From a virus: a DNA stretch of 31,895 nt. Position numbers and translations under genes: made by a program. The stretch covers positions 1 through 31,895 of the IMG/VR virus record IMGVR_UViG_3300020056_000099, one strand, 5' to 3'. Below are positions 15,414-18,556 of the stretch, in pieces. Every line of letters starts with the position of its first letter. Within the stretch, counting starts at the first letter, position 1. The notes below the pieces were generated by a model that was not told the origin of the DNA, searched no databases, and saw nothing but the letters and a program-made list of their open reading frames with translations.

Positions 15414-16160
15414 TCAGTCATTCCTAAATGTGTTATTGTAATCTACTGCTTCTTGCAGTATCGATAAATCTACTCCTGCAGATTTTGCAGTAGTAAGTAT
15501 AGCCGCTGTATCTTTTGGAAAACAATGTCCTCCGAACCCCCTATCCTGTGTAATATTTGTATGACTTTCGCCAATGCGCTCGTCATGTGTAATCTCTTTC
15601 CTAACAGGTTCATAATCAATATCAAGCTTTTGACACATGTCAAATATTTGATTGAAAAATGCAACTTTTGCAGCAAGAAAACTATTACGGAAATATTTAA
15701 CTAGTATAAGTTGTTCTACATCTAACACTCTAATGTTAATATTACCTAATGCATCTAGGAAAAGAGTTTGCCAATCATAATAACCATTGCCTCCTATAAG
15801 AATAGTATCACATTTTTTAAAATCTTCTAGTGCCGATGCTGCTCTCAAAAACTCAGGTGAAAAACTAATTTGTTTATCAGGATACAGTTCTTGTATTGTA
15901 TTCCATCCTTCTAAACTAATTGTGCTTTTAATAAGAATAGGTACGTCTGGAGCATTGCGTAACACATCTAAAACATTGCTTATATCACAACTGCCGTCGT
16001 CTGCTTCTGGAGTCGACACACAAATTATCAACATATCAGCATGTCGCAAGTCACCATAGTGTTGTTTAGCAGGGTCACTTATAATAATAGTATGCGATTC
16101 CCTAAAAACACTTTCGTGTGCTTGTCCTACAAAGCCGTAACCTGCAATTCCTATCTTCAT
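15414..16160 (-). CDS. UDP-glucose/GDP-mannose dehydrogenase-like, short form
   Basis: A 248-aa enzyme of the UDP-glucose 6-dehydrogenase family, which oxidises a nucleotide sugar to its uronic acid with two NAD+. Residues 4-12 (GIAGYGFVG) form the NAD-binding Rossmann turn. SPEFLR (101-106), VKYFRNSFLAAKVAF (K155, N159) and the catalytic cysteine C213 in GGHCFPKD follow in order. Full-length enzymes are about 390-450 aa; this one stops after the central helix and lacks the C-terminal UDP-binding domain. Short forms also occur in marine phages, so it may be active with a partner or a changed substrate. Its ATG overlaps the zinc-finger stop (ATGA). It is the last gene of a sigma70-driven unit ended by a terminator. 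Confidence 0.85.
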   Translation of the reverse strand: MKIGIAGYGFVGQAHESVFRESHTIIISDPAKQHYGDLRHADMLIICVSTPEADDGSCDISNVLDVLRNAPDVPILIKSTISLEGWNTIQELYPDKQISFSPEFLRAASALEDFKKCDTILIGGNGYYDWQTLFLDALGNINIRVLDVEQLILVKYFRNSFLAAKVAFFNQIFDMCQKLDIDYEPVRKEITHDERIGESHTNITQDRGFGGHCFPKDTAAILTTAKSAGVDLSILQEAVDYNNTFRND

Positions 16161-16327
16161 TCGTTTTCTTTTCTAGCAAATAATATGTCACAATAACCAC
16201 ACACTACATAGCCATCGTGCGGCACTTTGTAATATGTAAGCGGATGATCGTTATTTTCACCAGAACACTTTGCAGTGTCACCATCTACATATACAATACG
16301 TTGTTCGTAACCTTCTACTCTATTCAT
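16157..16327 (-). CDS. zf-CHCC zinc-finger protein
   Basis: A 56-aa protein with C21, H28, C43 and C46 in the pattern KCSGENNDHPLTYYKVPHDG followed by VVCGYCDILF. This is the zf-CHCC domain (known from the NDUFS6-like subunit of complex I and alphaproteobacterial small proteins), where a C, the HP histidine and a CxYC pair hold one zinc. All four ligands are present and spacing is normal. The host version is linked to complex I assembly; the phage role is unknown. It overlaps both neighbours by 4 nt (ATGA at each end), so it belongs to the 16560-15414 unit. Confidence 0.85.
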   Translation of the reverse strand: MNRVEGYEQRIVYVDGDTAKCSGENNDHPLTYYKVPHDGYVVCGYCDILFARKENE

Positions 16328-16602: not shown

Positions 16603-17574
16603 TTACAGTCCGCTTGGTAGAATAATGTAATGTATAGCAAGGACTAGTGCAACTGAAGCACCTAAGCCTACCATCATCTTACCAAAGTCTTTTGCTACTA
16701 GTGGAAACACACTCTTTGTTTTCTTCTTACCAAAGTATGTTGCCATAGCCAACTCACGTCCTGCTAACAAGCCTACGAACACCCATGTTGTACTCATTGG
16801 AATGTCATTTAGTTCCTTAAAGAAGTACAAGCACAACCAATAGAACAAGTCAATCAGTGTTGCTGATCTAACATATCTTGTATTGTGTTTTTCTAATACA
16901 ATCTTTTGGATACGTCCGCCACGCTCTCTAAACATAAAGAACAATCCAGCGACAAACACAATGCTGATAAACACCATTAGGTCCACAGGCACTTGTCTTG
17001 GTAAGAACACTGCGATGTTTGCTACATCATGTGATAACCAAGTAAACCATAAACCACCTGTGGCCACCCATTGTGCTATGCGCCAAAACTTTTTGTTGCC
17101 TTCGCTTACTGGTTGTGTTTCATCATACCATTTGCCAAAGTATTTGTGTATTGCAAACCATACCGCATATGCAAATGCGGCTGCTACACCATAACCCATA
17201 ATAGATTTCATAAGCATCTTCTCTAGTACAAAGGTACTAGCAAACACTGACAACACCAGGAAACTTGTGCTAACTGGCACACCCATTCGTGTTAGCAACA
17301 CCAGTATAGCAGGTGCGGCTGCGTGATACCATTGTACTTCTTGGAATGGTATTTTGTTTAGGCGTCCATAACTGATGTCACCTCCGTTCATATACCATCC
17401 ATACCAGAGTGTATATAATAAAACAGCCGAAGCGGCTGCCCATAGTACTTTGTAGTTGAATCGCTCATTGTTTGATGCCATCCAAGTACCGAGCGTTTGT
17501 ACTGAATCGTTTGCTATAACTGCGTAGGCAGCAAGCAAGAAGCCAACAAGGCTCCATAGTGTGAGTAGTTCCAT
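16603..17574 (-). CDS. PiT-family inorganic phosphate transporter
   Basis: A 323-aa inner-membrane protein with about nine to ten hydrophobic segments. It shows the inverted duplication of PiT/PHO4 transporters: ANDSVQTLGT (21-30) pairs with SHDVANIAVF (181-190), and VPVSTSFLV (99-107) pairs with IPMSTTWVFVGLLAGRE (258-274). These signatures line the phosphate/cation path, so it should import phosphate, useful to a phage that must make much DNA in phosphate-poor sea water. Bacterial PiT proteins are usually longer; the central loop here is short. ATG at 17574 follows AAAGGAGA. A Pho-box match (17666-17684) and a hairpin-containing leader lie upstream. It is a probable host-derived auxiliary metabolic gene. 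Confidence 0.92.
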   Translation of the reverse strand: MELLTLWSLVGFLLAAYAVIANDSVQTLGTWMASNNERFNYKVLWAAASAVLLYTLWYGWYMNGGDISYGRLNKIPFQEVQWYHAAAPAILVLLTRMGVPVSTSFLVLSVFASTFVLEKMLMKSIMGYGVAAAFAYAVWFAIHKYFGKWYDETQPVSEGNKKFWRIAQWVATGGLWFTWLSHDVANIAVFLPRQVPVDLMVFISIVFVAGLFFMFRERGGRIQKIVLEKHNTRYVRSATLIDLFYWLCLYFFKELNDIPMSTTWVFVGLLAGRELAMATYFGKKKTKSVFPLVAKDFGKMMVGLGASVALVLAIHYIILPSGL

Positions 17575-17591
17575 TTCTTTCTCCTTTGCTT

Positions 17592-17634
17592 GACGGCTTT
17601 ACCCCGTCGCTCACAAATGTAACTGCAAGTTACA
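17592..17634 (-). promoter_or_regulatory. Two dyads in the phosphate permease leader
   Basis: TGTAACTGCAAGTTACA (17618-17634) is a perfect 7+3+7 inverted repeat. GACGG/CCGTC (17592-17596 and 17604-17608) forms a hairpin just upstream of the AAAGGAG site. They could be an operator and a translation-modulating hairpin; neither role is shown. Confidence 0.4.
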
Positions 17635-17650
17635 CGATTACTTAGTAACT

Positions 17651-17684
17651 GTCAATAAAAAAATTTGTAACAGAATTATGACAA
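17651..17684 (-). promoter_or_regulatory. Pho box (PhoB site) upstream of the phosphate permease
   Basis: On the minus strand 17684-17666 reads TTGTCATAATTCTGTTACA, two direct 7-8 nt half-sites 11 bp apart, very close to the PhoB consensus CTGTCATA-A-x-CTGTCACA (two clear mismatches). Downstream, TATTGA sits about where a PhoB-dependent -10 belongs, and a TTGACA (17651-17656) with a poor -10 gives an alternative promoter. The site lies between the divergent permease and small-protein genes. Confidence 0.75.
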
Positions 17685-17686
17685 TA

Positions 17687-17694
17687 GATAAATA
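17687..17694 (+). promoter_or_regulatory. T4-late-like octamer facing the small-protein cassette
   Basis: GATAAATA on the plus strand, about 100 nt before the 17796 start, adjacent to the Pho box. It would give a roughly 95-nt leader containing a CGTTG/CAACG hairpin. Confidence 0.4.
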
Positions 17695-17795
17695 GAACGG
17701 CCAGAAAAGAGAAGTTATTCACACCTTCGACCTGACACGTTGAAAAGACAACGGGCGTCCGCCATATAAGACAGCATTACATATTGGAGAAAACA

Positions 17796-17978
17796 ATGAC
17801 AAACTTAGCAAACATGCTTGGTAGTGTAATGACTGCGGTCAGACTACCAAAAAAACAAAAAGAAAACTTATATCCTATTGAAAAATATGTTCAGGCAGAA
17901 TTTCAAAAGGGTGATCAGGCATACGTTCTTGAATGTATGCTAACAGGCCAGCCTATAGATTATCGCAACATTAGATAG
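17796..17978 (+). CDS. Small protein of the phosphate-linked cassette, unknown function
   Basis: A 60-aa protein (MTNLANMLGSVMTAVRLPKK, then IEKYVQAEFQKGDQAYVLEC). I chose the ATG at 17796 because GGAGA lies 5-9 nt upstream; an in-frame TTG at 17784 overlaps that site and is unlikely. An amphipathic N-terminus is followed by a polar helix. No family recognised, but size and the neighbouring DUF1127 gene suggest the small host-like proteins typical of alphaproteobacteria. It is read divergently from the phosphate permease across the Pho-box region. A structured GC-rich segment with a T-tract follows the stop. Confidence 0.75.
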   Translation: MTNLANMLGSVMTAVRLPKKQKENLYPIEKYVQAEFQKGDQAYVLECMLTGQPIDYRNIR

Positions 17979-17979
17979 T

Positions 17980-18048
17980 TATGTGCTGCGCACATACGCA
18001 CAGTTGCGTGTAGCGCATAGCGGGTCTACGCTATTCGCACTTGTTTTT
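17980..18048 (+). ncRNA. Stacked-hairpin RNA element ending in a terminator-like stem
   Basis: Three consecutive stems start right after the 60-aa gene: TATGTGC-TGC-GCACATA (17980-17996), ACGCA-CAGT-TGCGT (17996-18009), and GCGCATAGCG/CGCTATTCGC (18013-18038, one mismatch, 6-nt loop) followed by ACTTGTTTTT. GCGCA-type words recur, so other pairings compete. It is GC-rich against AT-rich surroundings. It could be a terminator with upstream structure, an attenuator, or a processed small RNA. A CACG/CGTG mini-hairpin follows at 18049-18062. Confidence 0.5.
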
Positions 18049-18143
18049 CACGGCTGTACGTGTTAAATATACTTGTACAAGGAGTAAAACTAACGGTTGT
18101 TAGACTCGGATCACACATATACATATATACAAGGAAACACAAA

Positions 18144-18380
18144 ATGACTACATTGGTAGCAAACACACTTGGGTTTTTTGGCGGCGGCTTTGCCAAATGG
18201 CTCAAAACATTAACCGTAAAGGTTCAAGCCGCACAAGTTCGTAGAGCAACAATCAACGAACTATCAGCACTAGACAACAAAGACCTAGCAGACATTGGCC
18301 TTTCACGTGGAGACATCCGCTATCTAGCTGACCAACATTATAATGATGTTGTAAACGCAAACTTGAAAGGATGGGTGTAA
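18144..18380 (+). CDS. DUF1127-domain small protein
   Basis: A 78-aa protein. Residues 33-58 (RRATINELSALDNKDLADIG and LSRGDI) match the DUF1127 signature almost perfectly: an Arg-rich start, ELSALDxxxLxDIGLSRxDI. DUF1127 proteins are abundant in alphaproteobacteria. Known members such as CcaF1 of Rhodobacter bind RNA and affect sRNA maturation, and Agrobacterium homologues affect phosphate and carbon metabolism. I chose the ATG at 18144 because AAGGAA lies 8 nt upstream; the open frame extends further back without a supported start. Its stop overlaps the next ATG (TAATG). A phage copy beside a phosphate transporter is unusual and suggests control of host RNA during infection (inference). Confidence 0.88.
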   Translation: MTTLVANTLGFFGGGFAKWLKTLTVKVQAAQVRRATINELSALDNKDLADIGLSRGDIRYLADQHYNDVVNANLKGWV

Positions 18381-18556
18381 TGGATACAGTAATGAAATAC
18401 ACCTTCGCACCACTACAAGGTTTTTGGAGCGGATTATATAATACCTGTGAAATCATCGGTTATAGTAGAGCAGCATCAGAACTTGCTCGCATGGGGCTTC
18501 ATGAAGAAGCAAAACACTGTATGATGCAAATCAAATCTATTAGAGCGTCTAAATAA
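18380..18556 (+). CDS. Small host-like protein coupled to DUF1127 gene
   Basis: A 58-aa protein. The C-terminal half YSRAASELARMGLHEEAKHC recalls short alphaproteobacterial proteins related to the DUF1127 group (R-A-A-xELARMG-x-EEAK). The N-terminal part is hydrophobic-aromatic (YTFAPLQGFWSGLYN). I chose ATG 18380, which overlaps the preceding stop as TAATG and has GAAAGGA about 8 nt upstream; an in-frame ATG at 18371 would leave no spacing to that site. The gene is followed by a strong terminator, so it closes the first plus-strand unit. Confidence 0.7.
   Translation: MDTVMKYTFAPLQGFWSGLYNTCEIIGYSRAASELARMGLHEEAKHCMMQIKSIRASK

Follow-up and report, generated by a model that had tools for sequence, protein, structure and literature searches.

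The translational operators of phage T4 (RegA, gp32 and gp43) are structured elements beside a phage ribosome-binding site. Aquatic microbes are often limited by phosphorus, and phages require much of it. In cyanophages, pstS and other genes are under the control of host PhoBR (PMC10976474 and work cited there). Soil phages carry pit genes in a few cases (PMC10987575), and algal viruses carry PHO4 transporters (PMC3429862). Among DUF1127 proteins, CcaF1 binds RNA (PMC10253847), and Remme and colleagues (2025) reported for Agrobacterium and E. coli that members of the family bind PhoR and hold back the genes for phosphate uptake (PMC12501420).

The locus described here resembles each of these systems in part. 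As with cyanophage pstS, phage phosphate genes stand beside a host PhoB site (here a predicted one), but the hosts differ, the transporter is a PiT permease, the leader contains a structured RNA, and DUF1127 is found in the same phages. Soil-phage pit genes likewise encode a PiT-type transporter; here it belongs to one lineage with more than 400 relatives and a conserved leader and Pho box. Algal viruses also carry a member of the PHO4 superfamily, but they are viruses of eukaryotes. The phage DUF1127 protein shares the PF06568 core, and a link to phosphate control or RNA, with SDP1-3 and YjiS (PMC12501420) and CcaF1 (PMC10253847); unlike these, it is phage-borne and weakly basic, and has a C-terminal tail shared among the phage proteins. 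The structured leader lies beside a ribosome-binding site as the T4 operators do, but its target is a nutrient transporter, and RegA, which we rejected as a general leader-binding partner, occurs in only 2 of 19 large contigs of the group.

The window, that is, the whole stretch of DNA analysed, is an entire IMG/VR virus record of 31,895 bases. It encodes ribonucleotide reductase subunits and other phage proteins, one of which is a distant cyanomyovirus relative (26% identity). A small phage-borne zf-CHCC zinc-finger protein (PF10276, 36.6 bits) is encoded at 16157-16327 on the minus strand. The permease, 323 amino acids long, occupies 16603-17574 (minus strand) and scores 10.9 bits against Pfam PHO4 (PF01384), below the cut-off of 33.7; its bacterial homologs reach at most 25.8 bits, with the two halves swapped. 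The sole PDB match of the permease profile is the phosphate transporter TmPiT (6L85), with an E value of 7.8e-4 from phage sequences alone and 7.7e-6 when alphaproteobacterial homologs are added. Each half of the protein retains an ND...P-S-T signature, and ND 22-23, PVST 100-103, D183/N186 and PMST 259-262 are invariant across 13 phage and bacterial homologs. An AlphaFold model (pLDDT 75) was too weak to be informative, and a PDB fold search with it gave no significant match. The profile match, the invariant signatures and the weak PHO4 matches of the cellular homologs place the permease in a divergent branch of the PiT superfamily, with phosphate as its predicted substrate. The proposal of a PiT-type phosphate permease, made previously from the sequence alone, is thus supported despite the PHO4 score.

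We found 432 relatives of the permease in IMG/VR, the best 80 of which are at least 91% identical to it, and a search by leader pattern recovered relatives with identity down to 70%. About 50,000 records of cultured phages yielded none. Alphaproteobacterial homologs occur in 8-9 of 385 genomes, besides a metagenome-assembled genome (MAG) that includes phage contigs. At one related locus (L040:6988-7070, plus strand), an Rfam freshwater-2 RNA (58.9 bits, cut-off 49.9) lies directly 3' of the permease stop codon.

Between the Pho box and the permease start codon is a conserved RNA leader element that we call hairpin 2 (17587-17614, minus strand; GTGAGC-GACGG(GGTAAAG)CCGTC-AAGCA; R1, 72.7 bits). 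Its consensus is GYGAG-N-stem-KGUAAAR-stem-AARCA, with a stem of 5 bp, followed by a Shine-Dalgarno sequence. When sequences preceding the start codon are aligned, the region from hairpin 2 through the Shine-Dalgarno sequence is constant, whereas everything farther upstream differs. Among 63 distinct sequences, all 315 of 315 stem cells are paired, 55 of them by two-sided, compensatory changes, and covariation is 0.563 versus 0.145 in shuffled alignments. The outer pairs 6-32 and 7-31 hold in every sequence; pair 5-33 was rejected as a stem member, as it is broken in 7 of the 63. The loop and flanks are invariant. A leader peptide was rejected, since variable spacing to the Shine-Dalgarno sequence and changing stem codons indicate that the motif is not coding. 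The Shine-Dalgarno sequence itself (AAGGAG, 17581-17586, minus strand) lies outside hairpin 2 and is not sequestered by it, so there is no obvious on/off switch.

Our viral pattern scan, whose site counts are lower bounds, detected at least 120 distinct hairpin 2 sites. At least 106 precede the permease and at least 6 precede PstS, while at least 4 lie before a 180-amino-acid outer-membrane-like protein, at least 1 before a Phage_OMP protein and at least 1 before a 55-amino-acid gene just ahead of the permease. The 2 remaining sites are an unpaired chance match and a fragment at a contig end whose start resembles that of the permease. No site was found at structural genes among the matches listed. 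Of 27 contigs spanning 40-230 kb that were searched with a covariance model, 24 contain one or two copies, and the places inspected in large contigs are beside the same types of gene (permease, PstS and outer-membrane proteins). The window contains a single match, where 0.01 is expected. The stem is paired in 237 of 239 viral matches, among the matches listed, versus 3 of 50 bacterial ones. These 50 come from 85,000 bacterial and archaeal GTDB genomes, in which about 45 were estimated by chance, and the sole true match lies in a Rhodobacteraceae MAG, on one of four phage contigs there that carry the permease; a host origin of hairpin 2 was therefore rejected. The element is absent before the cellular permease homologs checked and from cultured phages. 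The leader has no match above gathering score to a known Rfam family, and judged from Rfam and the open-access literature, hairpin 2 is undescribed.

The stem thus covaries, and the element stays constant beside the genes of one pathway in otherwise unrelated contexts. Covariation and gene context together indicate that hairpin 2 is a real structured element tied to the phosphate genes of this group. The sequence-only reading had made no mention of it, and it is more constant than either the Pho box or the permease-DUF1127 pairing on which that reading relied. The core idea of that reading persists in altered form, and its RNA theme belongs to the leader, not to the DUF1127 protein. Not all phage phosphate genes have hairpin 2; it is missing from the PstS genes of phages without this permease. 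Relatives of the permease at 60-71% identity have another hairpin or none in its place; at four loci with about 70% identity (L356, L372, L385 and L386) the substitute is GAGGC-AATGTC-GCCTC, and the loop before more distant permeases is AAUGUC. Separately, PstS loci of other phages (L321, L323 and L328) share a hairpin, TTAGT-TGAAA-ACTAA, before the ribosome-binding site.

Just upstream of hairpin 2 is an inverted repeat of variable sequence, hairpin 1 (17618-17636, minus strand). Its stem can be formed in 90 of 97 distinct leaders (made distinct by k-mer overlap dereplication) versus 26 in shuffles; the sequence is free, with the recurring loop classes GGUAAA and AAYGUYGA. In the window phage, hairpin 1 may straddle the predicted transcription start, which is preceded by a putative sigma70-like promoter (17627-17655, minus strand) consisting of TTGACA (17655-17650), 17 nucleotides and TAACTT (17632-17627). 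Promoters of the TTGAC type were found in 41 of the 97 leaders. Some leaders have tandem hairpins with GGUAAA loops and a U-tract. At L012:5430-5545, L021, L011 and similar loci, a hairpin with a GUAAA loop and then a U-tract come just after the Pho box and -10 element, an arrangement that looks like an attenuator at the start of the transcript.

Leader hairpins could also act in a general way, stabilising the 5' ends of strongly expressed phage mRNAs or enhancing their translation without any control specific to a signal. Such a role would suit hairpin 1, which is conserved in structure and free in sequence, and it agrees with the location of the hairpins near the 5' end and with the accessible Shine-Dalgarno sequence. 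Against it stand the mere one or two copies of hairpin 2 per contig, found only at phosphate-uptake genes, and the loop and flanks, which are invariant even though pairing alone would suffice. We consider this explanation doubtful. Even less likely, in our estimation, is a minimal riboswitch whose small-molecule ligand would be tied to phosphate status. A covarying stem with invariant unpaired positions around it, in one pathway, is suggestive of a ligand, as are the tandem GGUAAA-loop hairpins with a U-tract in some leaders, but about 28 nucleotides with one stem would make a very small sensor, Rfam holds no match, and the Shine-Dalgarno sequence has no switching partner. We favour instead a leader that is read by a trans-acting factor and that would control translation or mRNA stability.

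Upstream of this leader RNA is the predicted Pho box (17666-17684, minus strand; TTGTCAT-AATT-CTGTTAC), with two 7-bp repeats at 11-bp spacing. We used a graded score on the published E. coli consensus (PMC3465305), against which TTGTCATAATTCTGTTACA at 17684-17666 reaches 13.2 of 14, the phage host being known only indirectly. This is the joint best score among the 97 distinct related leaders. Scores of at least 12/14 were obtained for 15 of the 97, versus 0.25 of 97 when shuffled and 2.8% of 290 control intergenic regions, and scores of at least 11/14 for 31 of 97, versus 3.8 in shuffles. The best boxes are also clustered in position: 20 of 26 lie 50-54 or 64-66 nucleotides before GYGAG, distances about one 11-bp step apart. 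The sequence-only reading had located the box at these coordinates and called it strong, and had looked to related phages for its conservation. The coordinates and the strong match are confirmed, the box recurs at a fixed distance in related phages, and the lack of conservation of box or pairing by which that reading would have been refuted is not observed.

The box in the window lies upstream of the predicted -10 element by 34 bp, where the canonical distance is ~10 bp; in other phage lineages, PstS genes are preceded by canonical promoters consisting of a Pho box, 10 nucleotides and TATAAC (locus L326). With strong support from the sequence, PhoB probably activates the permease through this box. 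A good Pho box is present in only about a third of distinct leaders, and some leaders without one use TTGACA or TATAAATA-like promoters. These leaders suggest that PhoB control, though common, does not extend to the whole group, whereas the RNA is nearly constant.

Divergently from the permease, the window encodes a cassette of three small proteins. It is preceded by GATAAATA (17687-17694, plus strand), a putative promoter resembling T4 late promoters that recurs in relatives, and by a leader (17727-17753, plus strand) with TCGACCTGA and the hairpin CGTTG(AAAAGA)CAACG. In a small sample of 8 sequences, this hairpin keeps the same pairs with compensatory changes. Small protein 1 (17796-17978, plus strand, 60 amino acids) gave no match in family searches, and is divergently encoded within 600 nucleotides of the permease at 16 of 125 loci. 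A 78-amino-acid protein at 18144-18380 (plus strand) matches PF06568 at 44.8 bits (cut-off 23.3), confirming the earlier description of a divergent cassette with a true DUF1127 protein. The predicted start of small protein 3 (18380-18556, plus strand, 58 amino acids) overlaps the DUF1127 stop codon, and this ORF recurs at 22 of 125 loci.

DUF1127 is the divergent neighbour at 27 of 125 distinct permease loci with sufficient flanking sequence. Among 19 large contigs of the group, 16 have one copy, a count inflated by the selection of some contigs through DUF1127 itself; the 16 include all 8 contigs of at least 107 kb, which were reached via the permease or the motif. It was found in 1 of 16 contigs of a comparison set that mostly lacks the strict motif and is mostly smaller. 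Chance proximity in a plastic region, with the Pho box serving the permease only, has an appreciable probability, although we lean against it. Such an explanation would account for the 98 of 125 permease loci (78%) without an adjacent cassette, and for the ATAAATA element and leader that the cassette has of its own. Yet where the arrangement persists, the spacing to small protein 1 is constant (196-222 nucleotides) while DUF1127 diverges to about 40% identity, and DUF1127 co-occurs with the permease genome-wide, sometimes tens of kilobases away in large contigs. The proposed pairing of permease and DUF1127 is therefore upheld as a recurring association, but not as one regulatory unit.

DUF1127 proteins are typically, though not by strict definition, arginine-rich and strongly basic. 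The protein in the window is only weakly basic (net +2, 5.1% Arg), and its relatives range from 5 to 15% Arg. The suggestion that it reshapes host RNA was not sustained; given the published binding of DUF1127 proteins to PhoR (PMC12501420), PhoR is the likelier target, and by analogy with homologs is our most economical guess. That contact has been proposed to depend on positive charge, of which the phage protein has little. RNA binding like that of CcaF1 is possible. If so, DUF1127 might itself read the leader, a proposal that draws on CcaF1 (PMC10253847) and on the 16 of 19 contigs with the gene. We judge it very unlikely: identity among the phage proteins falls to 33-50%, yet the RNA loop does not vary, three motif-bearing contigs (fragments) show no DUF1127, and DUF1127 proteins also act through protein contacts (PMC12501420).

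The phages that carry this module belong to the T4 superfamily, and their hosts are probably Alphaproteobacteria. In one large related contig the major capsid protein is closest to those of Sinorhizobium phages such as phiN3 and phiM12 (67%), and in a second to the PA5oct group (66%), so the T4 superfamily has at least two lineages with the module. That the host class is Alphaproteobacteria is indicated, not proven, by the cellular permease homologs, by tmRNA matches and by four permease contigs of phage origin binned into one Rhodobacteraceae MAG. The tmRNA matches, to alphaproteobacterial and permuted types, lie near the permease at L012:6572-6937 (plus strand) and L047:4224-4533 (minus strand) and score 105-120 bits, above the gathering score, although ARAGORN calls neither. 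The collections searched consist of fragments.

The gene identities, the Pho box in part of the group, the covarying leader RNA and the genome-level co-occurrence of DUF1127 are direct observations. A permease gene that often stands behind a Pho box and nearly always behind the folded leader suggests two levels of control over phosphate uptake in infected cells. With somewhat more confidence than doubt, we propose that host PhoB and a phage-specific translational leader jointly govern a phosphate-acquisition module of alphaproteobacterial phages, with DUF1127 acting on PhoR. When the host is starved for phosphate, phosphorylated PhoB would bind the Pho box and raise transcription of the phage permease; in some relatives, PstS or an outer-membrane protein would be expressed from similar leaders. 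A factor acting in trans, most probably a protein that binds RNA and less probably a small molecule, would then recognise the invariant loop and flanks of hairpin 2 and set the translation or stability of the mRNA. DUF1127, expressed from the divergent and probably late promoter, would contact host PhoR and damp or reset phosphate signalling. The net effect would be to maintain phosphate for phage DNA synthesis while host control is taken over. A bolder version, which we think improbable, makes hairpin 2 the first member of a regulatory RNA class found only in phages and responsive to phosphate status through a protein or a ligand; combined with the Pho box and the action of DUF1127 on PhoR, it would let the virus take over the host's phosphate control in three layers.

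If the proposed control is correct, a viral nutrient gene would be regulated at the RNA level in a widespread group of uncultured phages. The covariance model of hairpin 2 provides a marker with which to find such phages, and their DUF1127 proteins make it possible to test directly whether PhoR is tuned by viruses.
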